Of a stretch of DNA of 64,000 bases, positions 32,049 through 60,611 are shown piece after piece. The position numbers and the translations under genes were made by a program. The stretch is from Pseudomonadota bacterium (GTDB lineage: Bacteria > Desulfobacterota > Desulfobulbia > Desulfobulbales > Desulfocapsaceae): assembly GCA_018817385.1 (NCBI GenBank), contig JAHIUA010000023.1, forward strand, positions 1 to 64,000. Direction: 5' to 3'. How positions within the stretch are numbered: the first letter of the stretch is position 1; each line of letters begins with the position of its first letter. The notes under the pieces are model-generated. The model made no database searches, was not told the DNA's origin, and was given only the letters and a program-made list of their open reading frames with translations.

Positions 32049-32134
32049 GCCGAAGTGGTGGAACTGGTAGACACGCTGTCTTGAGGGGGCAGTGGCCCAC
32101 GGTCGTGCGAGTTCGATTCTCGCCTTCGGCACCA
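32049..32134 (+). tRNA. tRNA-Leu (anticodon GAG)
   Basis: The acceptor GCCGAAG pairs with CTTCGGC, discriminator A, encoded CCA at 32132-32134. The anticodon loop TTGAGGG has GAG, and the long variable arm and TTCGATT T loop fit a class II leucine tRNA. It is the probable attachment site of the island that starts immediately downstream. Confidence 0.95.
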
Positions 32135-32141
32135 TTAACAA

Positions 32142-32321: not shown

Positions 32322-33371
32322 ATGGCAACAGTGAAAGCAAGAAAAAGGAAGAAAGGAACTGTCTATTGTGCAGAGATTCGTATAAAAGGACATCCGAGTT
32401 TGTCCCAAACGTTCGAACGGAAATCTGAAGCTCATCGGTGGGCTGAGGAGACCGAGACAGCGCTTCGCAATAATGGATATGTAGGAAATGCCCCACCAGA
32501 TGATATGCTCTTTGATGATGCCTGGGCAAAGTATCTGGCAGAAGTCTCAGCTAGGAAAGCACCCTCAACTCATCGTCGTGAGTTGGCCCAAGACAAACCT
32601 CTGCAGTATTTTCATGGTCACACGTTAAAGGACATAACTCCTACAATGGTTGCACAATTTCGTGATTGGCGACTTGGAGCAGTGCAAGCAGGCACGGTTA
32701 TAAAAGATCTCAATACGGTATCTCACATTTTCACCACCGCTGTTCGTGAGTGGGGTGTCGAAGCGGCAAATCCTGTGTTGATAATCAAAAAACCTAAAGC
32801 ACCAACTGGACGACTCCGTTTCCTGACCGATGGAGAGATTGTGAAGCTCTTAAAGGAAAGCAGAAAAGGGCACAGGGGAAATCTTTACCATTTTCTCTTA
32901 TTGCAGCTCCACACGGGGATGCGGCCAAGCGAAGGCGCATCTTTAACCTGGAGTCAGATAGATTTTGATGGACGAGTTATTGATTTGCAAAAAACAAAGA
33001 CCGATCCACGCCGAGTACCTTTGACTGTCCCGGCGCTTGAAACGCTTTCCAAGCTTGTCCCTGCTGGTGATTACAAATGTAGCAATTTTGTCTTTCTACC
33101 CAAAGAACCGAAAATGACGTATCGGCGTCGGCCTAATCAATATTTTCGAGAAAGCTTTGAAGCGGCTATCAAAAGAGCCAAGATCTCAGATTTTCATATG
33201 CATGATTTACGGCATACTGCTGCAAGTTACATGATTATGAATGGTGTTGACCTGAGAACAGTGGCAGATATTCTTGGGCATAAGACAATTGCCATGACCA
33301 TGAAATATACTCATCTTCTCGATGATCATAAATTAAAGGCCATCGATCGTATTGCAGGGCTAGGCTTGTAA
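32322..33371 (+). CDS. Tyrosine recombinase / site-specific integrase
   Basis: The 349-residue protein starts with a basic arm-binding segment (MATVKARKRKKGTVYCAEIRIKG), then a core-binding SAM-like domain (about residues 60-150). The catalytic domain shows Arg in HTGMRPSEG near 205, Lys in TKTDPRRVPL near 228, HDLRH near 287-291, and the pair GHKTIAMTMKYTH with the nucleophile Tyr near 325. All six catalytic positions can be read. GGGAGG precedes the ATG. Position next to tRNA-Leu implies integration into the tRNA 3' end. It ends 2 bases before the convergent HU gene. Confidence 0.94.
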   Translation: MATVKARKRKKGTVYCAEIRIKGHPSLSQTFERKSEAHRWAEETETALRNNGYVGNAPPDDMLFDDAWAKYLAEVSARKAPSTHRRELAQDKPLQYFHGHTLKDITPTMVAQFRDWRLGAVQAGTVIKDLNTVSHIFTTAVREWGVEAANPVLIIKKPKAPTGRLRFLTDGEIVKLLKESRKGHRGNLYHFLLLQLHTGMRPSEGASLTWSQIDFDGRVIDLQKTKTDPRRVPLTVPALETLSKLVPAGDYKCSNFVFLPKEPKMTYRRRPNQYFRESFEAAIKRAKISDFHMHDLRHTAASYMIMNGVDLRTVADILGHKTIAMTMKYTHLLDDHKLKAIDRIAGLGL

Positions 33372-34850: not shown

Positions 34851-36212
34851 TTATTCTGTATAGGGACTGACTTTGGTAATATCCTTCAGTATTTTTGGTT
34901 TAGCCTGTTCCATTTCAGCTATAGAGCCAAAGGCTTCTGCATGAAAAGGTGTGTAAAAACCCTTCATGGGTTTGCCTATTTTTCTGGTTACTGAAAAATA
35001 TCCGCCAAAGAACTCTTTTTTAATCAAACCGTCTGCAATTACTTCATGTTCATTGCGTAATTGATGGACAATGGTAAACAATACATTACGCATACTTTTA
35101 TCTCTTTTGGCCATGGTCGCAATTTCCATGCATCCTGCCTTTTCTGCCTGTTGCCGTGCAATATCTTCCAGAACTTTTGCCTGAAAATAGACATAGCCAT
35201 TAGACATAGAGAACGCAAAAAACTGCCTGCCGTACATTTTGTTGATATGAGGTTTTAATTTTTCCAAGAACTGTGCAGCGTCAAACCATGCTGAAATATC
35301 CGTAGATGCAGGCGCCTCTGACTTCGACTTCTTTTGAGATGTCCCTTCTGTCTCTCCATAGATGTCTTCCTGGACTTGCCAGGCGGCTGTGCCACGATTT
35401 TCATCTACATGCTTTTTCTGCTCTGTCTCTTTCTCCACAAGTTTTAACGAATTCTCTTCCAACTCCTTTTGCCGTGCAAGCTGGTCCGCTTTCTTGAGAG
35501 TTGTCCCAAGAAGTCCTTTGGGCATCTTATGGTGGAGTTTGATGGCTTGAAGAATCTCTTCCTTTCTTGGTAACTGTTTAAATTCATCAATGCTGGAAAG
35601 TGGACGTCCGGCTGCTAAAGGATGTTCACCAAGTGAATAAAGGTAGCCATGCATAGATTTCAACTTTCCAAGGTCATGGCCTAAAGCAGCAACCATGGTG
35701 TCAGGAATAACATGCCATGCTTCTATCTCTGAAAGGAGTTGCACAACCTGTTCGGCCACATTAATGGAATGGTGAAGGAGGGATGTTCTGGAAAGAATTT
35801 GAAATGTATTTTCATCCCAACCACCTTCCACATCCCCTTGAATATTCACCACTGACGGACAGTTGCCCTCCTTATCAAGCAGACTGAGGATTTGCCCACA
35901 GACATTCCTTTGCAGCGGAAACTTCTTAAACCAACCCCTGTTATCAATCTTCTCCATTAAGGCTGCTGCTCTGATATCTTCAAAATCAAAAGGGATATTT
36001 TCCTCCTCTTGATGCTTTATTTTACGCCATAGAGGAGAGAGCTCTGCAATATGAACTTCCTTATTTCCTTCTTTAGTCCATAGCTTCGATAAACTTCGCA
36101 AGGTAACAACTCGGACTACTTTCTCTTTCTGCTGTCCCAAATACAAAACCACGATAGCTACCAGCAATAGAGTAAAAAATAAAATCAGTAAGCCACTACT
36201 CCAAGAATCCAT
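34851..36212 (-). CDS. Membrane-anchored HD-domain protein, possible MOBH-type relaxase relative
   Basis: One N-terminal transmembrane segment (SSGLLILFFTLLLVAIVVLYLG) precedes a soluble region. Residues about 145-250 carry an HD-like set: LLHHSINVAEQV, AALGHDLGKL, EHPLAAGRPL and AIKLHHKMP. These positions and order resemble the HD-hydrolase fold of TraI_2/MOBH relaxases. The C-terminal part (QFLEKLKPHINKMYGRQFF ... GYVYFQAKVLEDIARQQA) could be the DNA-binding half found in those proteins. Close linkage to a TraD-like coupling ATPase supports a relaxase or processing role. The start is ATG 36212 or TTG 36224. Assignment as a relaxase is inference; the HD motif is seen. Confidence 0.6.
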   Translation of the reverse strand: MDSWSSGLLILFFTLLLVAIVVLYLGQQKEKVVRVVTLRSLSKLWTKEGNKEVHIAELSPLWRKIKHQEEENIPFDFEDIRAAALMEKIDNRGWFKKFPLQRNVCGQILSLLDKEGNCPSVVNIQGDVEGGWDENTFQILSRTSLLHHSINVAEQVVQLLSEIEAWHVIPDTMVAALGHDLGKLKSMHGYLYSLGEHPLAAGRPLSSIDEFKQLPRKEEILQAIKLHHKMPKGLLGTTLKKADQLARQKELEENSLKLVEKETEQKKHVDENRGTAAWQVQEDIYGETEGTSQKKSKSEAPASTDISAWFDAAQFLEKLKPHINKMYGRQFFAFSMSNGYVYFQAKVLEDIARQQAEKAGCMEIATMAKRDKSMRNVLFTIVHQLRNEHEVIADGLIKKEFFGGYFSVTRKIGKPMKGFYTPFHAEAFGSIAEMEQAKPKILKDITKVSPYTE

Positions 36213-36226
36213 CGGTTCTAACAATC

Positions 36227-37576
36227 CTACGCTCTAACTTTGCTGGCCAGATCAGGAAAGATCACTTTAACTTCAGGATCATTAACTGTTGCGGTCTTTC
36301 CTTTGTATGTTCCAGAGTAGGTGCTTAAAAATATTTCCCTGGGAGCCATATTCAAAATCTCAGTATGTTTCACTCGTATTTCTTCGGTTTCACGAATGGA
36401 AAGCCCGCCACCCACTGAAATGATGGGTGAAAATTGTTGCTGCTCTCCCAGGTGTCTGGAAACATAAAAAGCCGTGCTGGCATCCGGCACGCGCATAAAG
36501 AGTTTAGTATTACAGTTATCTAAAATAGTATTGGCCCGGTCTTCTCCTACTTCTGCATACAATTGACTGATGGACTGGCAATAGCCATGGATATACACTC
36601 CGGCTCCACCTGCCTTGGCAAAGAGATCTTCAATCCCTTGATAAAGGACAGATTGTGCTTCATCTATATGCATTACAAGGGATGGGGTAACATTCCTACC
36701 ACTGGAATAAATACGCCCGACAAAAGCCTGGATCATGGAAATAATGACCTTGCCGGCAGTATAGGCAGCACGTTTTGTTAAGAGCGAGCCAAGCTGAACC
36801 ACCAAAATAATGCCCTTTCCCTCTTCCAGACGTTTAATAAAGCGGTTTTCATCCGCTTTACCAATTATCTGTCCCACATTTCCAGAGGTAAGTTCTGTTA
36901 ATGCTACACGTAAAGAACTGGCTACCTTGGAATAATAATCTGGCGGAGTGGAAAGAATCTTCTGCATGTCCAGAGTAAGCTGCCGGGCTTCCGGCGTGTT
37001 GATATAATCGAGTTTTCCCTTTAGTACTTTCAGATCCTGATGGCTGATATGGTTTTTAATATCATTGAGATTGAAGGAAGGTGCCTTGTCAACGGATTCA
37101 GCCAATATAATCAAGGCTTGTACTACTATCAAGCTGACTTCGTAGGCAACACCAAAGAAATATGGCTCCCGTCCTACTGCCACACCTGCTGTAATATGGG
37201 CAACCAGCTCTTCCGGCATATAATATGACGAAAGAGGATCCAGAATTGCGCTGTATTCTGGGAAAATTGGGGTGACCAGCATTAGGTCTTCGAGCCGGTC
37301 GGTATCATCAGCAATCTCGACAATTTTTGAAAACAGATCAATGTCTCCTTTGGGATCAATGGCCACTACAGAATAGCCCTTACGAATATCCTGTTCGATG
37401 ATATGCTCCATTGTTCTGGTCTTACCCACACGGGTGGTACCAAAACACCAGAAGTGCCCTTTCCTGTGAGAGTCAGGAAAACCGAGATCAAGAATTGTCT
37501 CCGGGGAATCCAGGTGGATCCCTGTGCCGATATGTGTCCAATGTTCAGTTGGACTACTTTTCCTGAAGATCCCCAT
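36227..37576 (-). CDS. TraD/TraG/VirD4-like type IV coupling ATPase
   Basis: The 449-residue protein begins MGIFRKSSPTEHWTHIGTGIHL and lacks the usual N-terminal membrane segments. Walker A is GTTRVGKTRTME near residue 48 and Walker B is SLVMHIDEAQSVLYQG near 310. FWCFGTTRVGKT, DPKGDIDLFS and TILDNCNTKLFMRV are typical of TraD/TraG. Such hexamers deliver relaxase-bound DNA to a secretion channel. A membrane protein is encoded two genes downstream. An in-frame ATG at 37609 would overlap the preceding gene by 31 bases and is less likely. Identification as a coupling protein is good. Confidence 0.85.
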   Translation of the reverse strand: MGIFRKSSPTEHWTHIGTGIHLDSPETILDLGFPDSHRKGHFWCFGTTRVGKTRTMEHIIEQDIRKGYSVVAIDPKGDIDLFSKIVEIADDTDRLEDLMLVTPIFPEYSAILDPLSSYYMPEELVAHITAGVAVGREPYFFGVAYEVSLIVVQALIILAESVDKAPSFNLNDIKNHISHQDLKVLKGKLDYINTPEARQLTLDMQKILSTPPDYYSKVASSLRVALTELTSGNVGQIIGKADENRFIKRLEEGKGIILVVQLGSLLTKRAAYTAGKVIISMIQAFVGRIYSSGRNVTPSLVMHIDEAQSVLYQGIEDLFAKAGGAGVYIHGYCQSISQLYAEVGEDRANTILDNCNTKLFMRVPDASTAFYVSRHLGEQQQFSPIISVGGGLSIRETEEIRVKHTEILNMAPREIFLSTYSGTYKGKTATVNDPEVKVIFPDLASKVRA

Positions 37577-37578
37577 AA

Positions 37579-38325
37579 TCAAGACGAAACAAAACGTACT
37601 TGAATACATTCATGTAATTCTTCACTGACAGCTGAGATTGCTGATTTTGGCAACCTCCTGGAAGTAATAACGAAACTTTTGTGCCCCACATATCGTTTCA
37701 CACAATGAATGTTTACCTCTTCGTCTTCCACGGGCAACTGCTCCTGTAGCAAACTCTCCACCAGAGTTTTGGAGACTCGATCCAGAACAATCTTCATCTT
37801 TGGAGTCCCGGCAACCAAAACAGGGTCAATCCGGCGTATATGAAAAGCACGTATTTGCCCAACACCAAAAGATTGTAGATTTCTTTCATGCAGGCCGATA
37901 CGATTGAGGGGACATACAGCGATCACCTGTTCTCCTGGAATTATCTCAGCCTCCACAAGAAGATCTCCACTAGGGCGACAGGCCAGCACCTCAGCCCATC
38001 GCAACTCTCTTTCATAAAACTTGTATTTTTTCGTCTGCTTGATCGTAGCTGCTTTTGACAAGGCGATGTCCAAATGTTTTAGGAGAGTGTTCGCTCCTCT
38101 TATTTCTCGGAAATCAATCCATCGCTGAATCGTTGTGCCGTCAATTTTATTGTAGAGTACAGCTTCCATCTCAAAATTATTCCGGAAAAATGCCATGGTA
38201 TCAAGTCCGTACCATTGAGATAGAATGGACGAAAATACCTTCTCGATTTCAGTTACTACTTCATTTTGAGTAAGGCCATACTGAGACGCAAATTGCTGTA
38301 TTGCTTTTTGCATGCGACAAGACAT
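37579..38325 (-). CDS. NusA-like protein heading the mobilisation operon
   Basis: The 248-residue protein aligns by eye with NusA over its N-terminal, S1 and first KH regions. Residues 1-60 match the NusA N-terminal helices (a helix, then a strand AVLYNKIDGTTIQRWIDFREI). The stretch PLNRIGLHERNLQSFGVGQIRAFHI resembles the S1 domain, and LDRVSKTLVESLLQEQLPVEDEEVNIHCVKRYVGHKSFV resembles the S1-to-KH junction SR-L--LF--EVPEI-DG-V-IK. The end, AISAVSEELHECIQVRFV, resembles the KH helix-strand. It is half the size of real NusA (about 495). It is first in the leftward series, so a transcription elongation or antitermination role for the transfer genes is attractive but unproven. The start ATG has a weak ribosome binding site. 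Confidence 0.6.
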   Translation of the reverse strand: MSCRMQKAIQQFASQYGLTQNEVVTEIEKVFSSILSQWYGLDTMAFFRNNFEMEAVLYNKIDGTTIQRWIDFREIRGANTLLKHLDIALSKAATIKQTKKYKFYERELRWAEVLACRPSGDLLVEAEIIPGEQVIAVCPLNRIGLHERNLQSFGVGQIRAFHIRRIDPVLVAGTPKMKIVLDRVSKTLVESLLQEQLPVEDEEVNIHCVKRYVGHKSFVITSRRLPKSAISAVSEELHECIQVRFVSS

Positions 38326-38794: not shown

Positions 38795-41700
38795 CTAGCG
38801 AGCTTTTCGAATTCTCTCTTGGAGCGATAAAGCAATAGGTACCTGTTTAGAAGCTAAATGTGCAGCTATACCTAAAAGTGCTTTACGAAAAGAAGAATCT
38901 GAAGATATTTTGTTTGTATCATTAGAAACAATGACATCCAAAAGTTCTATTAAAGCACTTCCTGTCCCATTTCTATGCCAATAGAGAGCATCAGGGGGCA
39001 CCAAAGAATCTCTGATCCAGAATAATCCATCATACTGAATGGATGATCCTACTTTTGACGAAAGAAATCTTGCAAATGCTGATACATTATCCTCTTCTTT
39101 AGAGAGGTGCCTTCTAGCCCAACGCTCATACAAGTCCTTATTTTTTAGAACTATTTCTTGGGCACCTTCAAATTCTAAAAAATTAATCGTATTAAACCCT
39201 AAAAGATGCCGGAATAATTTTTCACCTTTGTACCAATATCTATTAGGAGACCAGTTTGGTAGTGGCAGTACAAATTCGATCATATCTCTCCAAAACAGAG
39301 AAATAGAGTTTATGTTTTTGCTTTGAACAGTTGCAATAAACCATCCATCGATTAAATGTTCAATTGCATGATGACCGTCTACACCTAAAGACAAAATCGG
39401 TTTCCAAATATTAGCCGCTTCATCTTTTTTGGCCGTTACCAGAAGCCTTGATAGCTTTTGAAGAAGAGAGTAACCTAAATCACTTGGAAGGCTATCACGG
39501 TCATTATCATCGTCGCTTGCCTCTTCATTCTTTTGTTTTCTCCAAGCCTCAAATTCCCATAGTTTTTGGGTTAAGAAGCGCACATCGGAACTATCATCAG
39601 CACCTTGCCCATGATCATTCAACAACCATGAAAACATTTTGTCCAATGTATAGGTTTCAAGACCAGAAAAACTACGACGACAGTAACGCAAACGGCCATC
39701 TGCATCTTTTCCGAACAACCGTTTAATACGAGCCTTTTTTAAACGATCCACACGAACTGCAATTCCGATTAGATCAATTGCTTCTGCATTTGCTGAAACG
39801 TTTAAATCACGAGTGCGCAACCATCTCAACCAACTAGCCCAACGTATTTCAATCGATTTGTCTTCATCTTCCCTAAAACCCGGACTAAGGCTATTAAGAC
39901 CGGCCCAAAAAATCGAAATCTGTATAAGGCGCCACCAGCGAACACCTAACTTTTCTCTATTTTTATAAGCTGCATCCATCAAAAGAAAGACAGCCTGATG
40001 GTCTCCACTGGTCAAAATTTTTAATACAGAAGCATCTGTGCCTTTATCATGGTCTGAATTGCTTATGAATTTTTCAATAACAACATGTGTCGCAAAAGCA
40101 AGTGACCTATTATTCATAAAAGGGCCGGGAGCCCTTAAGGATTCGAGGGTGTCTCCAATATTAGAAATAATATTCTGAATAATTTCATTTGCCTCGCTCT
40201 TAATATCAGGGTTTTTATCAAGCCAATGGGAAGCTTTTACTAACAATGTGGCTGAAATAGCCGCTTCTGTTGCAAGGGTACTTTCCACATCTTCTTCTAT
40301 AGACACGACGTTGAGAGCGGAGGATAGCCTCTCTGCATCTTCATCAGTCAAGTTCTGAGATGATGCTAAAATTTTCTCACATTCGTAAGGCAAAGTAACA
40401 GCCTGTAATCTTGGATTATTTTTCTGCTGAAACGCACATATATCTTTCTGAAGCTTGTCAGGATAGAGACACACTAAAAACGTTTTTCCAGATTGTTTTT
40501 CTTTTTCAGATTTATAGTTTTTGGGATCAAGTTCAGCTTTTAATATTCTTACTTCTAAGTCATATTTTTCCTCGCCTGAAGACGTTTCCCAACTTCTGGA
40601 TATCTCCTTAATAAAAGAGGCTGTTTTTTTATCATTGAGAGCAAGTTGAGCAGCTATCTGCCGCAATGGAATTTTTCGATGAGGAGCAAAACTCCACTCT
40701 TTGGCCATTTCAAAAACGTTTTCGCCTGCCCTAGCCCATGACAAAGCATCGAACCAATGCCCATTTTGAACACGGCTATCATCACCTTGATATAGTTCAT
40801 AAATGCCCAGCAAAGGTTGCAAAATACCGATAAATAAATCAGGTTTATACTTCCCTACATCCAAGAGCATGCCGATTATTGCGACAGAATTTGAATCTTG
40901 CAAAAGCGTTCTTATCACAGACTCTACATCTTCTTTTTTATCAATCTTGGTATAAATCCATTTTTCTAAAGCAGCCAAGGCACAATGGAGTTGCCCGTTA
41001 GAAGTAGAATTTTCTTGAGACCAAGTGAAAACTCGTCCATCTCCCTTAAAACTTTTTCTCTGACCGTCTTGGAGAGTAAGCTCTAAACTACAAACACTTT
41101 CATAATTATCCGCCCATCTATCTGTACAGAAATTTATCAGTGTAATCAACGTATCTACAGCCACGGTAGTATTAAGCTGTAAAAACTGGAAAAATGGACT
41201 CTTCCAATATGCCGTAGGATAGCCTGAATTACAAAATTCTAGTCCCAAATCATCACGAAGTGAACTAGTTGAATAGCCTTCTGTTGGTGAATCATCAATT
41301 AGCAATGCAAGAAGAAATTCACTTGCAACTTCTGGTCTTAGATGCATTAGTTTAGACAAGGAATTTGCATTTAAACAATATTCTCGAAAAGTATTGTCTA
41401 CCCTCCCTTGAGGGCCTAATGGCCAAGGAGGTAAGTCTCTATGGCTTGAAATACTGGTAGGCATTGCACGCAAACGTTCGTTTCTTTCACGATATTCTTT
41501 ATCAGTACGCAACCTTTCAATATGTTCTTTTCTTTTGTCTTCTCTATAAGCCTCAACAGCTTCCGTAATTTCTCTCTTGCAGGGTCTTCTACAGGCCATT
41601 TCCAGAGCCCATTCACAGACTTCTTCAGGAAGGTCATTTACAGCCGCAAACGCTGCCCCATAAAGAGATTTGTCACTGTCATCTCTAAGCCAAATGTGTT

Positions 41701-44086
41701 CCTTCTTTTGCTCAAGCTGTAAAACTCTTACCGTGCTTAGAGCAAGCTCTGCAAATTCCTTCCTATAGGGCATTACCGTATTTGTATCACGATCAAGAAA
41801 AAGTGGTGTCGTTGTAAGCCAAGTCTCACATAATTTTGAAACAGTTGGTGAGATTAGGTTGGAAATTTGTTCTTTGTGATCTGAAAGAAATTTTGCAACC
41901 TGTGGCCAACGACCATAAATTGGCAACCGTTGCATATCTTCTAGATACAGTTTTAGCGAAGGATCGATATCAAGAGACTCATTAGATACATTTGAAACGG
42001 TTGCTATATGATGAAAGCGTCTTAACAACCGATTTAAACGAGCCCCCCTATCTGCAAAAAGCATCTCTGATCGCTCATTAAGATAATGACCTGCAAATGG
42101 ATCAAGACATAAAGAGTCTAGGAGAATATCTGCGGTTAAAGGGTTTTCATCTTTTGTTTTTTCTGCTTCCTCATAAACAACATCCCATAGATTTCCTTGT
42201 TCAGTTTTTTCACGAAGAAGTAGCTGTCCCATCATACGCAAAGCATTATGCCAGAGAGGATTGCTAGCGTATGGTGCCCAAGAGCTTATGTCATTTTTTA
42301 TTTCTTTTAAATGTTGAAATCTTGCCCAATCAGCACCCAAGTCATGTTCAAATTCGATTGAATTCGTCTCTTTTCTTTTTCGTAGTGGCAAGCAATCCAA
42401 ACCTTCGTCGAGAGCTTCGCTGACATCATTGTCAAACCCTCTGAGAGGAAAGCTACGTTCAAATTCAGCTTCACGTTTTGCAAGTTTTATAAGAAGATTG
42501 TGAAATTTTATTTTGTCTTTTGTCCAATACGACCATAGACGATCAGCAATGGCAGGCAACGATATGTCATCCATTCCCCCTTGAGAAAAAACACCTTCAG
42601 CTCGTATTACCCAAGCTAACGTTTTTAAATTACCCAACGCTATAAGAGCTTCGTTATCTGAAGCAAGCCAAGATAAGTGATTGCTTGAATACAAAGCTGC
42701 TCTTACATCAGAAGAGTCAAGAGAAGAAATTTCCACCGCCTTGATCGAGGTACGTCCCGAAATTTCATGCAAATCTCCAGAACCCCAAGCTTCGGTTTGT
42801 CCAACAATGATAACTCGCCACTCAACACAGCTCTCTTGTTCGCCGTCAGACGCCAAAAGCTTGAAAATAAGAGGCTTAACTTTTTTTATGGCGTCAGGGC
42901 TAATTCTCTCAGCAGAATCAATGATAAGAATATTTTTTTCTTGAGATGTGTGAGCAAGAATATCCTGCAAAGGTTTAAGGAAGCCCAATTCTAATCTCGT
43001 TCTCTCACTTAATGCAAAATCTAAGTTTTCTGGAGAAAGCCAAACCTGTTTCCACTTAGAAAATTTCTTATTTAAAGTAGATTTTACGAACGCAGACTTT
43101 CCACTTCCCGAGCTACCGTATACAACGCATATTGGATTTTCTCTAAGATACTCTTCTAAAAGGTCTTCTTCTGCGGTTCTTATTACACTGTGACCAATCG
43201 GCAAGCTAGTTTCAATTGTACTTTTATATTCTTCAGACATTGCTTCTAAAGATGTCCATGAAGGAACATAGTTTGGATGGCTTTTTAAATCAAAAACTGG
43301 AACTAATTCTTGCCACAACTCCGATAACTGTAATGTCCCTCCTACGATACGTTTATCTTTAGCTTTCTTAAGAAGCCAATCCCACAGCTCTTTTGCAGTA
43401 TCTTGAGAGCCATTCTGCAAAATATCGCGACATTGCGTTAGTGAGGCGTCTATATATTCGGAACTTGCTAAATGAAAATCTGAAGGAATGACTTCTAAGC
43501 TGCGTATAAGAGCAACTGTGTTTTCGTTTCTGTAATCACTGCTGTCATCTGAATCCTTAATACTGTTAAATACATTACTATGTTTTTTATCATTCGTAAT
43601 TCGTGCTACAGCCGTTTCAACATCGCTCTCAGAACACCAAGATTTTATGTTTGCCCAAGCAGTAAAGAATTTTTCATTATAACCTTTCTGCACTAACATC
43701 AAACAATCGTGCTCTTTATTAAACGGCTTTCCTTCCTTCCAGAGATCCCAAGCATTATTTACAAAATCTGGTGGGAATCCTGCACCGCTAACTTGCATGT
43801 TACTTTTACATGAAATTGCTAACTGCTTTTTTTCTGTTCCTTCGCATGTGATCAAAAGATCATCTATTTGTTTCCAACCTAAGACCCCTGTCTGCCATTT
43901 TAGTGTTGTTCCCAAAGCTTTAACGCCAGATAGCCTTACTCCACGCAACATTTTTACCATCAGCCAAGCTGCAGATAAGTCTTCAAAATCATAGCCTGCC
44001 CCACCTGTTTGGCGTGGTGTGGCCTTGCTGCTTCTCTTTTTTTTTGTTCTGTCTGATTTGGAATTAGCTGTCAAAATATATCTCAA
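38795..44086 (-). CDS. Giant defence-type protein: PD-(D/E)XK-like nuclease, P-loop (STAND-like) NTPase and long helical C-terminus
   Basis: The 1763-residue protein has three parts. Residues about 27-110 look like an N-terminal restriction-nuclease domain of the Cap4/Mrr-like kind: GGAGYDFEDLSAAWLM (Glu35), WKQIDDLLIT (Asp75/76) and LAISCKSNM (Lys94, where a Cys replaces the usual acidic or Gln residue). Residues about 300-560 form a P-loop NTPase with Walker A YGSSGSGKSAF (324-331) and Walker B ILIIDSAERIS (386-394). The remaining 1200 residues are helical and repeat-like, as in STAND sensors. Architecture resembles AVAST-type (Avs) antiphage proteins, where the C-terminal part senses a phage protein and the nuclease acts. 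No ATG is available at the 5' end; the candidates are TTG at 44086 or 44074. Lower GC than neighbouring genes suggests recent transfer. Confidence 0.75.
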   Translation of the reverse strand: MRYILTANSKSDRTKKKRSSKATPRQTGGAGYDFEDLSAAWLMVKMLRGVRLSGVKALGTTLKWQTGVLGWKQIDDLLITCEGTEKKQLAISCKSNMQVSGAGFPPDFVNNAWDLWKEGKPFNKEHDCLMLVQKGYNEKFFTAWANIKSWCSESDVETAVARITNDKKHSNVFNSIKDSDDSSDYRNENTVALIRSLEVIPSDFHLASSEYIDASLTQCRDILQNGSQDTAKELWDWLLKKAKDKRIVGGTLQLSELWQELVPVFDLKSHPNYVPSWTSLEAMSEEYKSTIETSLPIGHSVIRTAEEDLLEEYLRENPICVVYGSSGSGKSAFVKSTLNKKFSKWKQVWLSPENLDFALSERTRLELGFLKPLQDILAHTSQEKNILIIDSAERISPDAIKKVKPLIFKLLASDGEQESCVEWRVIIVGQTEAWGSGDLHEISGRTSIKAVEISSLDSSDVRAALYSSNHLSWLASDNEALIALGNLKTLAWVIRAEGVFSQGGMDDISLPAIADRLWSYWTKDKIKFHNLLIKLAKREAEFERSFPLRGFDNDVSEALDEGLDCLPLRKRKETNSIEFEHDLGADWARFQHLKEIKNDISSWAPYASNPLWHNALRMMGQLLLREKTEQGNLWDVVYEEAEKTKDENPLTADILLDSLCLDPFAGHYLNERSEMLFADRGARLNRLLRRFHHIATVSNVSNESLDIDPSLKLYLEDMQRLPIYGRWPQVAKFLSDHKEQISNLISPTVSKLCETWLTTTPLFLDRDTNTVMPYRKEFAELALSTVRVLQLEQKKEHIWLRDDSDKSLYGAAFAAVNDLPEEVCEWALEMACRRPCKREITEAVEAYREDKRKEHIERLRTDKEYRERNERLRAMPTSISSHRDLPPWPLGPQGRVDNTFREYCLNANSLSKLMHLRPEVASEFLLALLIDDSPTEGYSTSSLRDDLGLEFCNSGYPTAYWKSPFFQFLQLNTTVAVDTLITLINFCTDRWADNYESVCSLELTLQDGQRKSFKGDGRVFTWSQENSTSNGQLHCALAALEKWIYTKIDKKEDVESVIRTLLQDSNSVAIIGMLLDVGKYKPDLFIGILQPLLGIYELYQGDDSRVQNGHWFDALSWARAGENVFEMAKEWSFAPHRKIPLRQIAAQLALNDKKTASFIKEISRSWETSSGEEKYDLEVRILKAELDPKNYKSEKEKQSGKTFLVCLYPDKLQKDICAFQQKNNPRLQAVTLPYECEKILASSQNLTDEDAERLSSALNVVSIEEDVESTLATEAAISATLLVKASHWLDKNPDIKSEANEIIQNIISNIGDTLESLRAPGPFMNNRSLAFATHVVIEKFISNSDHDKGTDASVLKILTSGDHQAVFLLMDAAYKNREKLGVRWWRLIQISIFWAGLNSLSPGFREDEDKSIEIRWASWLRWLRTRDLNVSANAEAIDLIGIAVRVDRLKKARIKRLFGKDADGRLRYCRRSFSGLETYTLDKMFSWLLNDHGQGADDSSDVRFLTQKLWEFEAWRKQKNEEASDDDNDRDSLPSDLGYSLLQKLSRLLVTAKKDEAANIWKPILSLGVDGHHAIEHLIDGWFIATVQSKNINSISLFWRDMIEFVLPLPNWSPNRYWYKGEKLFRHLLGFNTINFLEFEGAQEIVLKNKDLYERWARRHLSKEEDNVSAFARFLSSKVGSSIQYDGLFWIRDSLVPPDALYWHRNGTGSALIELLDVIVSNDTNKISSDSSFRKALLGIAAHLASKQVPIALSLQERIRKAR

Positions 44087-44158: not shown

Positions 44159-45571
44159 TTAACCCACATTATTTATGTGTGTCTTGAGCAACCTGTAGAT
44201 TTCCTGCATTTTTTTTATCAGCTCATCGAAGGTGATGATCTTGACATCCTTTTGGTTATTACGGAATAGTTCGAAAGACTTAATTTTATCTTTTTCTTCT
44301 GGCATTGTTCCTATAACAAGTGTGCATTCTACGGCGTATGATTCAATATCGTAAATTCCGGAATTTTCTTTGAGTGATGCGATCTCTTTCTGGAGTTTAT
44401 ACTTTTGATCTAAAGTCTGAGCAATAGAGCCTGCAAGGTCAAGTGACACTGCGTAAACGCTATCTCGATAGCTGTTTGCTCTTATGAGAGGTGTCGAAGG
44501 CTTCTTAATCTCTATGATTGCAAGATTGTTCGATAGACTGTTTTTGACCAGAAAGTCTGTTACTTTGTCGCTGCTTCCTGAAATTGTTCTGCCTCCGACC
44601 GATGCTTGGTCTTCGATTTTTATGACCGGATAACCGAAAACCAGGGGTAAGATTATTGGGTTATCATTTAGTAGAATCTGCCACTTGTCTTCACCGGATC
44701 TCTTACTCTCTAATAGCTTCTGAGACTTACTTATGACATCTTCAAGATTTAAGAGATTGAAATCGGCCTGAAATTCATCTACTTCATTTCTTGCATACTT
44801 GTAGATGCTCTTTTTATTCGATTTGGCAAGGTCTACTACTGCTACTGAATCGACTCCAGAAATGTTGTCATCTTGTATCGTTGTTTCAGAGATCATCTCC
44901 TTGATGGAGTTCTTCTTGTATGGTCTCTTCTGAACCGGGTATTTTTCAGGATCTACTACTGTAAGTAATGAGTTGTGAGCTATTCTGAACCGCTCTTTTC
45001 TGCTCTCGCGCTGGTGTCTAGATACTACTCTGTTCAGTGTTAGTCGTAAGTGTTCGAAATCCTCGTAATTTAGGTAATAAAATCTTTCATCAGCCCTTGT
45101 TTCTTCTCTTGTTGAAATTACTAAATGCTGGACATTGGGTATGCTAGCTATTGAGTGTATGATTGGGTCTAGTTCTTTTAAGAGTCCCAACCCGTATTGG
45201 TAGTCTTTTACAAAACCCGTCGGAAATTCATGGAGTATTGCTTCTATATCATCTTCATGCTCAGGTGTATCGAATGAGAAACCGTCTAAAGTTATAGTCT
45301 GAATTTTATCGTACTTTGATTTTAAGAAGGCTCCTATGGAGATGGTCGTTGTCACAGGACTAATTTTCACAAAGTCCTTGGTCCCGTCTATGAATAACAA
45401 CTCGACTCCGTTCGGCCCGTAGTTCTCTATTTCTTCCGGATCGAAGTCTGCCGCTTGGGCTATTTCTAGAGAAGGCTTGAACTCTACAGAGACACAACCT
45501 GGATGGTGTTCACTTATAGTGGCTTTATCGAACACTCTGATTGCGCTTGATCCGAAATATCGGTATGCCAT
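44159..45571 (-). CDS. sduA: Shedu antiphage nuclease SduA (DUF4263)
   Basis: The C-terminal 180 residues (about 285-470) carry the DUF4263 nuclease: WQILLNDNPIILPLVFGYPVI, GGRTISGSSDKVTDFLV, AIIEIKKPSTPLI with catalytic Glu and Lys, RDSVYAVSLDLAGSIAQTLDQKY, and a final TFDELIKKM. DF-V and EIK match the PD-(D/E)XK core of Shedu. The N-terminal 280 residues are a sensing or assembly domain, variable among Shedu types. Shedu proteins nick or cut phage DNA on sensing. It is read in the same direction as the giant NTPase, 72 bases upstream of its frame, and is followed upstream by an HNH-like gene. Confidence 0.87.
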   Translation of the reverse strand: MAYRYFGSSAIRVFDKATISEHHPGCVSVEFKPSLEIAQAADFDPEEIENYGPNGVELLFIDGTKDFVKISPVTTTISIGAFLKSKYDKIQTITLDGFSFDTPEHEDDIEAILHEFPTGFVKDYQYGLGLLKELDPIIHSIASIPNVQHLVISTREETRADERFYYLNYEDFEHLRLTLNRVVSRHQRESRKERFRIAHNSLLTVVDPEKYPVQKRPYKKNSIKEMISETTIQDDNISGVDSVAVVDLAKSNKKSIYKYARNEVDEFQADFNLLNLEDVISKSQKLLESKRSGEDKWQILLNDNPIILPLVFGYPVIKIEDQASVGGRTISGSSDKVTDFLVKNSLSNNLAIIEIKKPSTPLIRANSYRDSVYAVSLDLAGSIAQTLDQKYKLQKEIASLKENSGIYDIESYAVECTLVIGTMPEEKDKIKSFELFRNNQKDVKIITFDELIKKMQEIYRLLKTHINNVG

Positions 45572-45606
45572 AAGTGGTTCCTTCTAAAACGTAAATTTTA
45601 TGTACT

Positions 45607-46278
45607 TTAAAGAACAGTGGTTATTTTTGCATTGTCGTAAAAGTGCAACCTCATCATTTTGCTACCAGCTGCGTCTTGGTCGATCTGATATTTAAAAACT
45701 CCTGGGTTATTACCGTGAAACTCAGAGTTTTCGAAAAATACATCTGACGCTCTGGAAATCTCATTTACCATTGCGTTGACATGGGCATATGCTGGGTCTA
45801 GTGTTCTGAGAATGATTTCCGGTTGAATGGTTATGGGCGTGAGTAGCTTCTCTTGATAATGTTGGAAGTAGATAGCTCTTGCTAGGTTATCAATCGATTG
45901 CTCAAACCTTTCGTATTCAATAGATACAGCAAAAGAATCTGCTCTTTCTCCCGTTTCCGGGTCTTCTATTGTAACTGGGACCGCAGTTCGTGTATATCGC
46001 TGAATTAAGGCTGGATTTCTATTAATGGCTCTCATGATAGCTGCAAAAAAATGATTTTGTGCTATTTCATTGCTCGCTACATTGATCACTAGCGAATAAA
46101 GTAAGTACTCATCATCCTGCGAACGATTTTGATTGTGCTCATCACAGGACGGTACTGTGATAAGCTGATCCCGCAAATTGACTCCTTCGGGTAAATCTCG
46201 TTGCCTCGGGAATATACACTTCGGTGGAGCATGCTCTACGCTTGTGGCTTCGCTATTGCACATGTAGCAAGTTGCCAT
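45607..46278 (-). CDS. HNH-like zinc-binding protein of the defence block
   Basis: The 223-residue protein starts MATCYMCNSEATSVEHAPPKCIFP with a CxxC pair, an EH and a PPKC, then LITVPSCDEHNQNRSQDDEYLLY. This is the layout of a family annotated as HNH endonuclease, where Cys pairs bind zinc and the EH gives the active-site His. The rest is a conserved alpha/beta domain without known role. It is 35 bases upstream of the SduA gene and probably in one transcript, but whether it cooperates with Shedu is unknown. Confidence 0.65.
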   Translation of the reverse strand: MATCYMCNSEATSVEHAPPKCIFPRQRDLPEGVNLRDQLITVPSCDEHNQNRSQDDEYLLYSLVINVASNEIAQNHFFAAIMRAINRNPALIQRYTRTAVPVTIEDPETGERADSFAVSIEYERFEQSIDNLARAIYFQHYQEKLLTPITIQPEIILRTLDPAYAHVNAMVNEISRASDVFFENSEFHGNNPGVFKYQIDQDAAGSKMMRLHFYDNAKITTVL

Positions 46279-46290
46279 CGTTATACCTCA

Positions 46291-46473
46291 ATTTTAATTC
46301 ACCATACTGAATTGATTGACTTTCTTGATGAAGATCTTACCGTTCACTCGACGCTCGATATTTTCCGAGAGTTGACATGTGAGCAGGTGAAAGATGTTGT
46401 TACAGGATTAGACTATTTTAATCGATACATCTTGAACTACTTCTATAAAGCTATAGCAACGAATACCTTTTAA
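46291..46473 (+). pseudogene. Possible remnant of a gene on the plus strand
   Basis: The frame encodes IHHTELIDFLDEDLTV, then STLDIFRELTCEQVKDVV, then YFNRYILNYF to a TAA at 46471-46473. Its composition looks protein-like, but there is no start codon downstream of the HNH gene start on the opposite strand, and in-frame codons upstream are antisense to that gene. It is probably the 3' end of a lost gene. No family is recognised. Confidence 0.3.
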
Positions 46474-46571
46474 GTATTGGCAACTATATTGACCTCGTTT
46501 CCTTCCAAGCATAGTCAACATATAGGCACTATATACGTAATAACATAACGCCACATGGCAAACCACCAAAG

Positions 46572-47783
46572 TCAGCCAAAATTGAGTATGACTCCTTCCA
46601 AATGCATGTCAATCCGTTTCCGAAGTGCTGAGGGAAGCTCATATGACTTTTTCTGCTCCTTCCATTTCTCAAACGTACTCGCAACCGTTTCCCGTACAGT
46701 ATCGATGACCAGATATTCCGGTACTTCAGCCTTGTGAGTGAGCTTCTGGAAATGCTTTAAACCTATCATGCCCATATCTTTTTCACCACACAGGTTCAGT
46801 GCCAAGCGATCACCTGGAAGATATGGAACAGTTGAGACAAAATCATAAGCTGGAGACAATGCTGGTGTAACCCCATCGGTGTAAATAAATGACCAGTTTT
46901 TGAGATGCATATCACCGTTGCCTATCAGCACGGTAAAGGTAAGGCGTCGAATAAACTCCAGGAGCCCGGCTTCGCCAGCCAATATCCATATCATATTGGC
47001 AATATTGTCATAGCTGACTTTATTGTATTTGTCATTTGGGAATACGTTGTAGACCTGGGCAAAATCTTCAATATGGATCCGTTTGTTCTCTTTTCGATCA
47101 AATCGTTTTACTGCTAAAGCCAAATTTCCTGATAAAAAGCCAAGTTCCGGTAAGCCTGCAATCTTCTCAAGGGGAACAAGATCTGTTTCGGGGACAGAAA
47201 TACCTACCTCTTTCGCCAGATGTAGCATAGCCCATTCATTTTCAGGAACCTGGGCAAAGTTTTGGGCGGGTAATTTAACAATCCAATCGCCGCCGACTCC
47301 GCTTGTTGGAACGGTTAAGCCACCTTTACTTTCTGCAAGGGCAGAAAATTTTAGTTGTACTCCGGCAAGAGAAAATCGGTATGGTTGTTCCTGGGAGGAA
47401 TGTTCTGTTTCTTTTGCCTGAAGTTTTGGTGGGACATTACGTTGATCTGATGATTTTATGGAGACCGCACCAGGCAAATCTTCCCCAAATAGTTCAAGAA
47501 GTTTAAATTCACGAGAAGATTTTACTCCACCACGTTTGGCGAGATATGTCCGCAGGTGACCTTCGGGTAGTAGATTTGAAAAAAATGGAGGAAGTTTTGT
47601 TTTGTAGGTTCTGGTTTCTGGAATCAGCTCTCCAGGTCCAGTAAAAAATGACTGGCTGAGGACTGGACGATTTGAGTCATTCAAATACTCTTCTTCAAAA
47701 ACAAAAAAAGTGCGATCACCTGGGAGTAGTGTCAGTTGGCCAATGCGGGTTTGGGCTAACCATACATCTAAAATATCAGACAT
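46572..47783 (-). CDS. hipA: HipA-family serine/threonine kinase toxin
   Basis: The 403-residue protein has the HipA layout: an N-terminal HipA_N domain (LPPFFSNLLPEGHLRTYLAKR, GEDLPGAVSI), the ATP-loop Ser region RFSLAGVQLKFSAL near residue 148, WIVKLPAQNFAQVPENEWAMLHLA, KRFDRKENKRIHIEDFAQV, the catalytic GNGDMHLKNWS near 290, and SPAYDFVST near 315. In E. coli, HipA phosphorylates glutamyl-tRNA synthetase and causes persistence. It overlaps hipB by one base, so the pair is translationally coupled. Confidence 0.93.
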   Translation of the reverse strand: MSDILDVWLAQTRIGQLTLLPGDRTFFVFEEEYLNDSNRPVLSQSFFTGPGELIPETRTYKTKLPPFFSNLLPEGHLRTYLAKRGGVKSSREFKLLELFGEDLPGAVSIKSSDQRNVPPKLQAKETEHSSQEQPYRFSLAGVQLKFSALAESKGGLTVPTSGVGGDWIVKLPAQNFAQVPENEWAMLHLAKEVGISVPETDLVPLEKIAGLPELGFLSGNLALAVKRFDRKENKRIHIEDFAQVYNVFPNDKYNKVSYDNIANMIWILAGEAGLLEFIRRLTFTVLIGNGDMHLKNWSFIYTDGVTPALSPAYDFVSTVPYLPGDRLALNLCGEKDMGMIGLKHFQKLTHKAEVPEYLVIDTVRETVASTFEKWKEQKKSYELPSALRKRIDMHLEGVILNFG

Positions 47784-48055
47784 CAGTCTTCCTCATCAGG
47801 TTGCCATCTGGGGGCGTCTGTATCTTCACCGGTAAGAAGTGACCTAACAGCTGGCAACATAGAGCGTGGCACCAGGGTCAGCTCCAGATCAAGTATGCGA
47901 GCCATATCTCTTAATGTGGATAGTTGCGGATTGGTTAATTCCTGCTCAATCTTAGAGATATGACTTTGCGGCAATCCAAGCTTTTTTCCAAGTTCGGCCT
48001 GGGTAAGCCCTTTCTCCTGACGTGCAGACTTAAGACTTTGAATAATCTTGCTCAT
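47783..48055 (-). CDS. hipB: HipB-like XRE antitoxin and repressor
   Basis: The 90-residue protein carries one helix-turn-helix (ARQEKGLTQAELGKKLGLPQSHISKIEQELTNP) and a short C-terminal tail LLTGEDTDAPRWQPDEED, the acidic tail that in HipB influences stability. It should neutralise HipA and repress its own operon through the palindromes upstream. Confidence 0.93.
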   Translation of the reverse strand: MSKIIQSLKSARQEKGLTQAELGKKLGLPQSHISKIEQELTNPQLSTLRDMARILDLELTLVPRSMLPAVRSLLTGEDTDAPRWQPDEED

Positions 48056-57165: not shown

Positions 57166-60100
57166 TTAATAATCGATCTGTTGCGCTAACTCTCTAAACC
57201 GACAAAACCCATTTGCTAGCTTCATTTGCTGAGGCGTTCGACATTCCGGCTCAAACAGAGCGGGGGAGCCTATAAGAATACAGAGTGCTGAGGCTCGAGA
57301 TGTTGCAACATTAAATCTGTGCGGATCATAGAGAAAACTCATACCACGTGGAGCATCTTCAGCACTGGAGGATGTCATGGAATATATTACGACAGGTGCT
57401 TCCTGCCCTTGAAATCGATCTACCGTACCGATATGATCCTTCATTTGGGGAATTGCTCCGGTCAACGCTGAGACCTGTGCATTGTAGGGTGCTATGATGC
57501 GAATGTCGTCCTCTTTCAATCGGTGCAGCTTCTGTTCTTTATCTTGCCACTTGCCACCATTTAGCAGTTCATTGATTATAGTGCTGATTACTTCAACTTC
57601 TTCATCGGAACGGGCCTGATTGCCTTCGTGATACACGGGCACGTATCTCAGCCCTGAGCCGCTGTACATATCCTTTGGATGTTGTATTGACTGAAGGTCA
57701 AGTCCTGGTCGAGATTCCAAACGCCCCTGATAGTAAACCTCAGAGGTAAACTGGGCAATTGCAGGGTGTAGTCGGTAGGTCTCTCCAAGAAAAAGGCCTT
57801 TGTTTGGAGGTATTGTTTCCGCACCATCAAGCAAATGATATAATGCTGAGACCTCACTACCCTCAGGGTGACTTGCCTGTATCGGCTGCTCAAGTTGTTG
57901 TGGATCACCCAGCAAAACTAAACTGCGTGCCGCCGGAGCGACCGCAAGAACATTACTCAAAGCCATCTGACCCGCTTCATCAACAATGAGTACATCGACG
58001 GTCTGTTCGAAATCAGCACGGCTCCAACACCAGGCAGTGGCCCCCACCACATCAATCTTACCGTTTTCAAGGCCACCTTGAATGGAGGGATAGCTGCTAC
58101 TTCTTACAATGCCCGATTCACCGTCGTATGTTCCTGCCTGTTTGTGTACTGCAGAAAGATCCAGTCCAATTTTATCGGCCTCTTTTTTTGCACTTTCCAA
58201 TAGGTTGACAATAACTTTGTGGCTGACAGCGGTTACTCCGACCTTCAATCCTTTTTGTTTCAATGCACAGATTATCTTTCCCCCTGTATAAGTCTTACCT
58301 GTACCGGGAGGACCTTGAACAGCAAGAATGTGGCCATCAAGTTCAGCAACAAGTCGACAAGCTGCATCAACTGTTTCTTCCTCGTCTCTTTGCAAGGAAT
58401 TATTTTCTCCGACCAGCAGAGAAGGGCGCCTTAAAAGCAATTCAAAAGCAGCTTTGTATGGTTCCTGGTCAGTAAAGCCCATCTCCAAAACACTATCACC
58501 GAGACGCATAAGAGATTCCCGTAGTACCTTTGAAGAAATTTGATTATTGAGGAGTAATGCGTCTCGATGTACCGTTGCAGTATCCATACGTTTTTTAACA
58601 TCAACGGTGCCGTCAGGATAATTTACCTCCACAATCTTGCCAAATTTATTGCCATCGGAATCTAGGGCTTCATCTCCTCGACGAATATCAAGCTCCTGAT
58701 CTGAATCATATTGATAACGATGTATTGGGGCGCGCCCAGCTTCCACCTCTTCAGCGAAGTGAAGACAAGCAATAGCCCTGCGCTCAGCAACATACTCAGT
58801 CTCTTCCAACTCAAGAAGACGGAAATACTCCCACCAGGCAGCTTTTTCCTCCCGTCTATGAAACTCCATCATATGTGCCAGGATAAAACGTGCATCTTCT
58901 TCAGCTGAACGTTCCTCTGCGTCAACCGGTATTCCTACAAGTAATCCATCCCGTAAGCGTTGCAATTCCCGGTCTAAATCATTTATTGTTTCTCCGGCGT
59001 CACCTTCTTGGAGTACAGGCCGAGGCAGGTCGTTACCATCGGCGACACAATCAATACGGAGTTGTTCAAGCCAATCACGCAGGTGCTGCGCAGATTCACA
59101 GTCTTCCCTGTTGTACTCCTCAACGATCCGGCATTGCTCGTCTAAATCAGCATCAAGCTGCCCAGCTTCCACAGCATACTCAACAAGGCGACGACTCATG
59201 GAAGCCTCATGCAAGTCCTGCTGCCTGGAATAGCCAAAAAATGGTTCGAGTTCCTTAATAGAATATCGCTCTACCCCCGCAATCAGTGATCGTTTAACCA
59301 CAGTATAGAGGTCTACAAAAGCGCCACCTCGAAGGAGCTCATCAAGTTCAACCTCCCGTGTAGCGAATCTGCCCATTAACCTTTTGAGAGCAGCGGGTTC
59401 ATAAGGAGCAAAATGATAGATATGGGCAGATGGATTTTTCCTGCGAGTGTCTATTGCCACATCCATGAATGACTCAAATGCCTGCTTTTCTTCCTCAAGC
59501 GTGCGTGCCCAGATAGCGGTATATTCAGGTTGTTCCTCTGTAAAGGTGATATAACCAATCAGATACTCCTGTACACCATGTTCTGCAAAATGGTTACCCT
59601 CGAAATCCAGAAATATATCATCTGGTGTTGGCTCAGGGAGTAAGGCCAAACCGTGTTTTTCGTTAACGGGTTCTTTCAACTCATAATACGGTTCATTGGT
59701 TTCACGACCTCTCAGCTGAACCCTTGCCTGTTCTCTGGTTCTTAACAGGGCTTCAAGAGACCCTTTTTCGGGTTTTTGGATTTCATTTGCTTTGGCCAGA
59801 CCTTTGAGATTTTCTATCCCCTGTTGTCGAAGGCTTTTGATCTGCCCCTTGGTTATCCCCGCAACATAGCCAAGATGATCATCTTTGCGCCGGCGTTCTT
59901 CACATTCGCTCCACCAGGCACATAAATCACAATGGGTTACAGGTTCCGGGTAGGTATTTCCCGGGTCATTTATAAAGTGACCAATCATACCTGTTAATAA
60001 TCGGAAATAGGCAGCATAATCTTCTGTCCGGTATGTATCAGGTTCGTAATCAGTGCCCGGCGTTACAACATGCATCATTTCCGGCCGCCCCCCCTGAATC

Positions 60101-60585
60101 TTTTCGAGCAGATATGAATACACACAGAGCTGGAGAATAGTACCTGCTTTTGTTTCATGAGCCAGTTTTGTGTCAATTACTTCGTAAGACCAATCACCAA
60201 GGTCACTTGGTTTATCGATCTTTCGTAGGAAATCAGCTCGTCCAGACCAGGTATCATCAGCCAGGTCAGGTTGATAAATAATATCTGCGCCACTCTGCAT
60301 TGCAGATAGTGTCTTTCCATTTCTGCCCACGAGAGATGTTTCAGTAGTAGGCTCATAATCATTGGCATCTACAACGAGCAATCCAGAACCACGAAGATAC
60401 TCCAAATAAGATTGTTCGTGATTTCTCCCTCGTTCTTTTAGGGCATCAAGAACAGGTCCGTAACGAACCGGACGTTCAACACTTCCTCTGGCCGCATCCA
60501 AATCACGTCGTGAGCTGTGGTTACAGCTCAAAAAATTACTGAGGTCAGTCGGAGCAAGAACAATTTTTTCTTTCTTTTTTTGCAT
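57166..60585 (-). CDS. TM0106-type RecB-like nuclease, DEDD exonuclease and SF1 helicase fusion
   Basis: ATG 60585 gives a protein of about 1139 residues. Part one is a RecB-like nuclease: YEVIDTKLA (Asp138, Lys140), WSGRADFLRK (Asp117), and Cys21 with CDLC and SEC (about 219-228), a likely 4Fe-4S cluster as in AddB. Part two (about 320-505) is an RNase H-like DEDD exonuclease: FLDFEGNHF, IYHFAPYEPAALKRL, FVDLYTVVK, and YNREDCESAQHLRDW. Part three is an SF1 helicase: VQGPPGTGKTYTGGKI (758-765), VLIVDEAGQM, LLGDPQQLEQ, ETYRLHPAIAQF, DRFQGQEAPVVIYSM, NVATSRASAL. No membrane segment. The stop of the giant upstream gene is about 27 bases before this start, so the two are probably cotranscribed. 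Such fusions occur in defence and repair contexts but their role is not established. Confidence 0.82.
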   Translation of the reverse strand: MQKKKEKIVLAPTDLSNFLSCNHSSRRDLDAARGSVERPVRYGPVLDALKERGRNHEQSYLEYLRGSGLLVVDANDYEPTTETSLVGRNGKTLSAMQSGADIIYQPDLADDTWSGRADFLRKIDKPSDLGDWSYEVIDTKLAHETKAGTILQLCVYSYLLEKIQGGRPEMMHVVTPGTDYEPDTYRTEDYAAYFRLLTGMIGHFINDPGNTYPEPVTHCDLCAWWSECEERRRKDDHLGYVAGITKGQIKSLRQQGIENLKGLAKANEIQKPEKGSLEALLRTREQARVQLRGRETNEPYYELKEPVNEKHGLALLPEPTPDDIFLDFEGNHFAEHGVQEYLIGYITFTEEQPEYTAIWARTLEEEKQAFESFMDVAIDTRRKNPSAHIYHFAPYEPAALKRLMGRFATREVELDELLRGGAFVDLYTVVKRSLIAGVERYSIKELEPFFGYSRQQDLHEASMSRRLVEYAVEAGQLDADLDEQCRIVEEYNREDCESAQHLRDWLEQLRIDCVADGNDLPRPVLQEGDAGETINDLDRELQRLRDGLLVGIPVDAEERSAEEDARFILAHMMEFHRREEKAAWWEYFRLLELEETEYVAERRAIACLHFAEEVEAGRAPIHRYQYDSDQELDIRRGDEALDSDGNKFGKIVEVNYPDGTVDVKKRMDTATVHRDALLLNNQISSKVLRESLMRLGDSVLEMGFTDQEPYKAAFELLLRRPSLLVGENNSLQRDEEETVDAACRLVAELDGHILAVQGPPGTGKTYTGGKIICALKQKGLKVGVTAVSHKVIVNLLESAKKEADKIGLDLSAVHKQAGTYDGESGIVRSSSYPSIQGGLENGKIDVVGATAWCWSRADFEQTVDVLIVDEAGQMALSNVLAVAPAARSLVLLGDPQQLEQPIQASHPEGSEVSALYHLLDGAETIPPNKGLFLGETYRLHPAIAQFTSEVYYQGRLESRPGLDLQSIQHPKDMYSGSGLRYVPVYHEGNQARSDEEVEVISTIINELLNGGKWQDKEQKLHRLKEDDIRIIAPYNAQVSALTGAIPQMKDHIGTVDRFQGQEAPVVIYSMTSSSAEDAPRGMSFLYDPHRFNVATSRASALCILIGSPALFEPECRTPQQMKLANGFCRFRELAQQIDY

Positions 60586-60611
60586 AAGTTGCTCACAGAT
60601 CAATAACACTG

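Follow-up and report, generated by a model that had tools for sequence, protein, structure and literature searches.

What does a minus-strand frame of 1763 codons encode that begins without an ATG and carries a serine where related nucleases have glutamine, and what would set its product in motion? The frame lies at 38795–44086 of the window, by which we mean the whole 64,000-nucleotide stretch of DNA analysed here, and had been described from its letters alone as a nuclease-NTPase with an Avs-like but possibly new sensor. It is open over all 1763 codons counted from the first TTG, and the absence of an ATG at its start is confirmed in the window. Two TTG codons could serve as the start: the first (44086), which gives 1763 residues, and the second (44074), which gives 1759. 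Judging from the sequence comparison, the second is the likelier start of the gene, because L012, which comes from the MAG of a gammaproteobacterial symbiont and is the nearest relative with 79% identity to the window protein, also begins L-T-[AT]-[NK]-S-K-S at a TTG; the two proteins align from this codon onward. In L012 a clear Shine-Dalgarno sequence, AGAAGGA, stands six bases upstream of the TTG, and upstream of the window TTG there is only a weak GAGA. The start codons chosen for 24 relatives are ATG in 20 cases and TTG in four. We number residues from the second TTG throughout, so that the Asp75/76 and Lys94 of the original prediction become D71/D72 and K90.

A comparison of the window gene with L012 over 1752 codons (one pair) gave a dN of 0.11, a dS of 0.85 and a dN/dS of 0.13, indicating that the gene is maintained. 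With the open frame and with full-length relatives in several phyla, this upholds the 1763-codon reading frame as a real gene, and a missing or frameshifted start was rejected, the TTG being kept in L012. That the frame is an unexpressed gene, or one with a broken start, is scarcely credible: the lack of an ATG and the weak ribosome-binding site in the window would fit it, but the low dN/dS over 1752 codons and the TTG of L012, there with its clear Shine-Dalgarno sequence, speak against it. The features of the locus are collected in Table 1.

Table 1 Features of the Avs4-type locus in the window, with their positions and the basis of each assignment
Feature	Positions	Strand	Basis
Avs4-type STAND nuclease gene, 1759 aa	38795..44074	(-)	Open frame, start compared with L012, dN/dS
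Predicted N-terminal nuclease domain, ~residues 24–200 (author-set bounds)	43475..44005	(-)	Model, fold match, alignment
Glu31, acid of first helix	43982..43984	(-)	Invariant in 25/25 rows
Asp71-Asp72	43859..43864	(-)	Invariant in 25/25 rows
Ser88-Cys89-Lys90, S-x-K motif	43805..43813	(-)	S and K in 25/25 rows
STAND NTPase core, ~residues 290–530 (author-set bounds)	42485..43207	(-)	Pfam below cut-off, fold matches
Walker A GSSGSGKS, residues 320–327	43094..43117	(-)	S322, G325, K326, S327 in 25/25
Walker B-like LIIDS, residues 383–387	42914..42928	(-)	D386 and following E389 invariant in 25/25
Predicted C-terminal Avs4-type sensor, modelled residues 560–1759	38798..42397	(-)	AlphaFold2, Foldseek, VIA
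sduA (Shedu), upstream neighbour	44159..45571	(-)	PADLOC SduA 4.4e-144
attL, 57-bp exact direct repeat over tRNA-Leu 3' end	32080..32136	(+)	Repeat match

A first scan of genome contigs for relatives, with the single sequence and no profile, returned nothing; when a three-row alignment was run against genomes chosen one per species, 24 loci were returned, the viral collection yielded one locus and the phage collection had no match. Searching plasmids by tblastn gave eight records, two of them near-full-length relatives at 38% identity and the others distant relatives in cyanobacteria and a bacteroidete. Within the window's own class, four of 257 genomes match, its own in full and three others in parts. 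The 28 candidates comprise the window, 24 genome loci, the viral locus and the two near-full-length plasmid matches, from which an alignment of 25 full-length rows (A3; the window and 24 others) was built, leaving out one locus cut by a contig end (L028), one with an interrupted frame (L031) and one split by an insertion sequence (L008). The six partial plasmid matches belong neither to the 28 nor to the alignment. Structure alignments used 24 of the 25 rows, omitting the Paraburkholderia relative L007 from the plasmid collection. Rows of A3 with a named phylum belong to Pseudomonadota, except for single rows from Chloroflexota, Acidobacteriota and Verrucomicrobiota. One full-length relative, encoded on a named plasmid, has no annotation beyond that of a hypothetical protein. 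The split locus (L008 7935–14751, on Aromatoleum aromaticum plasmid 2) is a family member interrupted by an IS1182-like element, and intact copies occur in other Aromatoleum species.

The gene is carried by an integrative element of ~93 kb at a tRNA-Leu, which runs from 32049 to 64000 of the window and on to position 125284 of contig C66. Its boundaries are two exact copies of a 57-bp repeat, one over the tRNA-Leu 3' end and the second outside the window (C66 125228–125284). Its integrase (32322–33371) clusters with annotated integrases of L008, and a TraC-type ATPase is encoded at C66 92510–93628; two more contigs of this genome, C46 and C70, also carry TraC homologues. The element further contains a TraD/TraG-like coupling ATPase (36227–37609) and an HD-domain protein (34851–36224), which we take to be possibly a MOBH-type relaxase. 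The G+C content is 39% in the gene, 42% in the part of the element within the window and 47% in the left flank. Close to the end of the window (57166–63914), the element encodes a 1147-aa RecB-like nuclease-helicase (TIGR03491 1.5e-69; PADLOC MkoA 1.6e-43). The next gene encodes a protein of 1100 aa that resembles TmtA in PADLOC (5.2e-41) and matches nothing in Pfam at E up to 0.01. Outside the element, a tRNA-SeC gene is predicted at 9604–9701.

On the same strand, sduA ends 84 bases upstream of the start of the window gene, an arrangement that could be read as a two-gene operon in which Shedu and the window protein cooperate. Neighbours were counted at 27 loci (ORFs of at least 90 aa within 8 kb, several loci having shorter flanks), and the largest shared clusters reached only four of them. 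The integrase and HipA were the only window neighbours in shared clusters, and none of the 26 other loci had a cluster in common with sduA; moreover, Shedu is a single-gene system. The operon reading is therefore very improbable, Shedu was rejected as a partner for want of recurrence among the loci, and sduA is a separate system. That no neighbour cluster recurs in more than four of the 27 loci suggests that the window protein works stand-alone. The surrounding cargo (44159–48055) combines defence and toxin-antitoxin genes: sduA, a HipA/HipB-like pair and a 223-aa CxxC-containing protein that matches no family significantly. In L017, too, the relative has a HipA-like gene nearby. In PHROGs, nothing was listed for the window protein at E up to 0.01.

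We then turn to the N-terminus. In the AlphaFold2 model of residues 1–640 (mean pLDDT 82.9), the putative nuclease consists of a helix (26–44), three strands (53–60, 73–78 and 82–88), a second helix (102–114) and a further strand (124–130), an order that we read as a PD-(D/E)xK core. Seven residues of this region, E31, Q61, D71, D72, S88, K90 and D123, are invariant in all 25 rows of A3. The helix and strand order, together with E31, D71/D72 and K90, supplies the N-terminal effector that characterises AVAST/Avs proteins, here a predicted nuclease. Compared with the D...(E/Q)-x-K site of PD-(D/E)xK enzymes, D71/D72 and K90 are in place, as had been proposed, but serine takes the E/Q position in every row. 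The letters SCK had been identified correctly and read one residue off: Cys89, thought to stand in for the acidic or Gln residue, sits at the free x position (A in 14 rows, C in six, V in four, S in one), and it is Ser88 that is substituted, aligning with the Gln of Q-x-K (S in the 9/9 family rows used for this comparison, Q in 5/5 Avs4-type proteins that carry the longer nuclease). On this alignment, cysteine as a catalytic substitution was rejected. N92 and Q94, each present in 24 of 25 rows, extend the motif to S-x-K-x-N-x-Q.

By the evidence of the alignment, S-x-K is a hallmark of the whole family and not decay, since Ser88, Lys90, E31 and D71/D72 never vary. The same serine, replacing the acidic or Gln residue in 25/25 rows, could instead be taken to mean that catalysis was lost and that the domain, a nuclease in origin but degenerate, binds DNA or another effector. 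We consider this improbable, because a dead enzyme would be expected to lose E31, D71, D72 and K90, which are invariant across 25 much diverged rows, and because no recurring effector gene adjoins the loci. The missing Gln could mean altered or weak catalysis. On its own, the nuclease domain had no counterpart in Pfam at E up to 1 and, in a PDB search by sequence profile, matched no solved nuclease. Among the literature matches listed, in the portions of text available, for S-x-K precedent and for Avs, no description of this family appeared, although one may still be in print.

The nuclease is followed, as the original prediction had it, by a P-loop NTPase, with the P-loop at residues 320–327. 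The Pfam models AAA_16, AAA_22 and nSTAND1 match this region, all below their cut-offs. With the N-terminal model, Foldseek placed 8dgf (Avs4, 1.9e-12) and 8dgc (Avs3, 6.7e-12) at the top, and VIA placed NLRC4 first (Z 19.3, 338 aligned residues), followed by NOD2, NLRP3 and others, in a list that spans mainly residues 266–640 and barely covers the nuclease part. Avs4 stood at rank 15 in that list (Z 17.2, 468 aligned residues), its rmsd of 18.0 arising because the domains are placed differently. The invariant Walker A and B residues and the fold matches together identify the central STAND P-loop NTPase typical of AVAST/Avs proteins.

The remaining ~1200 residues are mostly helical, as expected, in the AlphaFold2 model of residues 560–1759 (mean pLDDT 79.5, pTM 0.53), and form, in this predicted model, a large helical C-terminal sensor of the Avs kind. 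Foldseek matched the model to 8dgf, the complex of Avs4 with a phage portal, at E 3.6e-18, the next entry being importin 13 (6.6e-05). In VIA the same entry reached Z 23.5 over 998 aligned residues (rmsd 8.7), compared with 10.3 for the next, with residues 9–1197 of the model lying on residues 449–1587 of the 8dgf chain at 13% identity. The predicted sensor fold is thus that of Avs4, and the notion of a new sensor class was rejected on these fold searches.

Profile comparisons extend this kinship to the rest of the protein. The 25-row family aligned with eight Avs4-type proteins over 1583 columns at 17% identity (probability 100, E 4.7e-75), near full length and with the nuclease included. PDB profile searches reached 8dgf with a six-row profile (1.6e-37) and with the 25-row family profile (2.3e-11); neither Avs4 nor a nuclease came up when the query was the single sequence, L007 or a three-row profile, and P0002 alone gave no Avs4 in the PDB either. 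The NCBIfam Avs4 model matches all 25 members at E up to 0.1 (the window at 8e-23) and the PADLOC Avs4 model 21 of the 25 at the same limit; the window protein has no match to the latter even at E up to 1. Against the Avs4 equivalog model NF041815, the window protein scores 79.7 bits, far under the curated cut-off of 1500, and the two best Avs4-type genes found in its class also fall short of that value (690.9 and 665.2 bits). A quick tree of NTPase and sensor, for which a long-branch warning applies and whose deep branching is uncertain, unites 24 of the 25 family rows in one clade (SH-aLRT 100) and puts E. coli Avs4 in another (SH-aLRT 100); the remaining S-x-K row, L033, joins a nuclease-free cyanobacterial protein from Geminocystis just outside the family clade (99).

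The window protein is very probably an Avs4-type receptor. It is a divergent, so far unlabelled branch of Avs4, neither an Avs4 equivalog nor the founder of a new sensor class. The Avs-like label proved right, in both fold and near-full-length profile homology, and the proposed new C-terminal class dissolves into the Avs4 fold. As for a close full-length homologue among described Avs subtypes, the homology does run near full length but is distant, at 17% identity and 79.7 of 1500 bits.

What the sequence and its models show is the gene with its order of domains, the residues that never vary, a predicted fold of the Avs4 type and the homology; on this we build a model that we regard as probable, that of an Avs4-type receptor with a nuclease effector and an Avs4-like trigger. 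The helical C-terminus of ~1200 residues would most likely bind a conserved phage virion-assembly protein, probably the portal. Upon binding, the central STAND NTPase would bind ATP and oligomerise, bringing the N-terminal PD-(D/E)xK-like nuclease domains together. These domains, using E31, D71/D72 and K90, with the invariant Ser88 where related nucleases have Gln, would then cut phage and host DNA and so lead to abortive infection. Oligomerisation, DNA cleavage and abortive infection are what we infer by analogy: in the available parts of the published accounts, an Avs2 oligomerises on its trigger (PMC12724215), and the nuclease effectors of Avs1–Avs4 cleave phage and host genomes (PMC12931631). 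The portal is our first guess because the sensor fold matches that of Avs4, and we lean slightly towards it as the trigger; the large terminase is sensed by Avs1–3 and the portal by Avs4, as given in the accessible text of PMC12724215.

At 13–17% identity to Avs4, the ligand may differ. The same Avs4-type receptor could recognise another phage ligand (the terminase, another head or neck protein, or an early protein), a reading that overlaps with our model and that we think possible though less likely. It gains from that low sensor identity, from the placement of the family and E. coli Avs4 in different clades and from the Avs5 clades, for which the available part of PMC12931631 gives a jumbo-phage protein as the trigger and perhaps more than one ligand, but it must contend with a predicted sensor fold that tracks the Avs4-portal complex over 998 residues. 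More doubtful still, the S-x-K family might be a distinct, unnamed Avs type, with a phage ligand outside those of Avs1–5 and a nuclease whose metal site, remodelled around Ser88 and the near-invariant N92 and Q94, differs in metal need, substrate or basal activity. The family shows that the Avs4 sensor plan reaches beyond the proteins labelled by current Avs4 models, given that the plasmid relative is called hypothetical and the window protein goes unlisted by the PADLOC Avs4 model. With its invariant S-x-K, it is also a natural test case for the latitude of the catalytic motif in Avs effectors, and for whether the choice of phage protein depends on the fold of the sensor or on its surface.

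Other plasmid-borne proteins carry the Avs4-type sensor with different N-termini. In a Haliscomenobacter plasmid (L010 2045–8048), a trypsin-like protease (PF13365 1.2e-05, slightly below the cut-off of that model) is fused to it in place of the nuclease; directly upstream lies a gene with a metallo-beta-lactamase fold (PF00753 8.3e-05). A nuclease-protease pair is known for an Avs1-type system, according to the available text of PMC12799240, and here such a pair would sit on an Avs4-type sensor. Two proteins of cyanobacterial plasmids (L009 4758–9572 and L072 1363–5718) are Avs4-type NTPase-sensors in which only ~100 residues precede the P-loop, not enough to hold such a nuclease, and their effector may be supplied separately.

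Among known systems, Cap4 of CBASS (6wam) gives a fold match to the N-terminal part, with Z 14.9 over 205 residues, but the range matched, 22–376 of the model, extends into the STAND NTPase; at E up to 1, the nuclease sequences are not linked by any Pfam family. To our knowledge, Cap4 has no Avs sensor. Unlike the window protein, it is, by the titles of its PDB entries, a SAVED/CARF-domain receptor of cyclic trinucleotides. Avs3 (8dgc) comes second to Avs4 in Foldseek for the nuclease-STAND half (E 6.7e-12) but is absent from the 50 matches listed for the sensor half, among which 8dgf alone is outstanding; it senses the terminase, as stated in the accessible part of PMC12724215, whereas the window sensor is Avs4-like by predicted fold. 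Avs4 itself (8dgf; NF041815; E. coli WP_042035445.1 in L071) has the same stand-alone order of effector, STAND NTPase and large sensor, but differs from the window protein in sequence (13–17% identity, 79.7 of 1500 bits) and in clade. Its P-loop lies at residue 227 in E. coli and near residue 320 in the window, because the window protein has a longer nuclease module, one of the D-D...S-x-K type; read by eye, the N-terminus of E. coli Avs4 has G-W-Q-A-K, a Q-x-K, where the window has S-x-K. The window protein was predicted to be longer than usual, and at 1759 aa it does exceed the 1587 of the annotated E. coli Avs4, though modestly, since five other Avs4-type proteins with a similar nuclease measure 1679–1806 aa. 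These five (L067, L068, L070, L073 and L074), with a longer Q-x-K nuclease, carry a homologous N-terminal module on an Avs4-type STAND and sensor; they are 18–21% identical to the window over this module, and E31, Q61, D71, D72, K90 and D123 are invariant in the 14 rows that unite them with the family.
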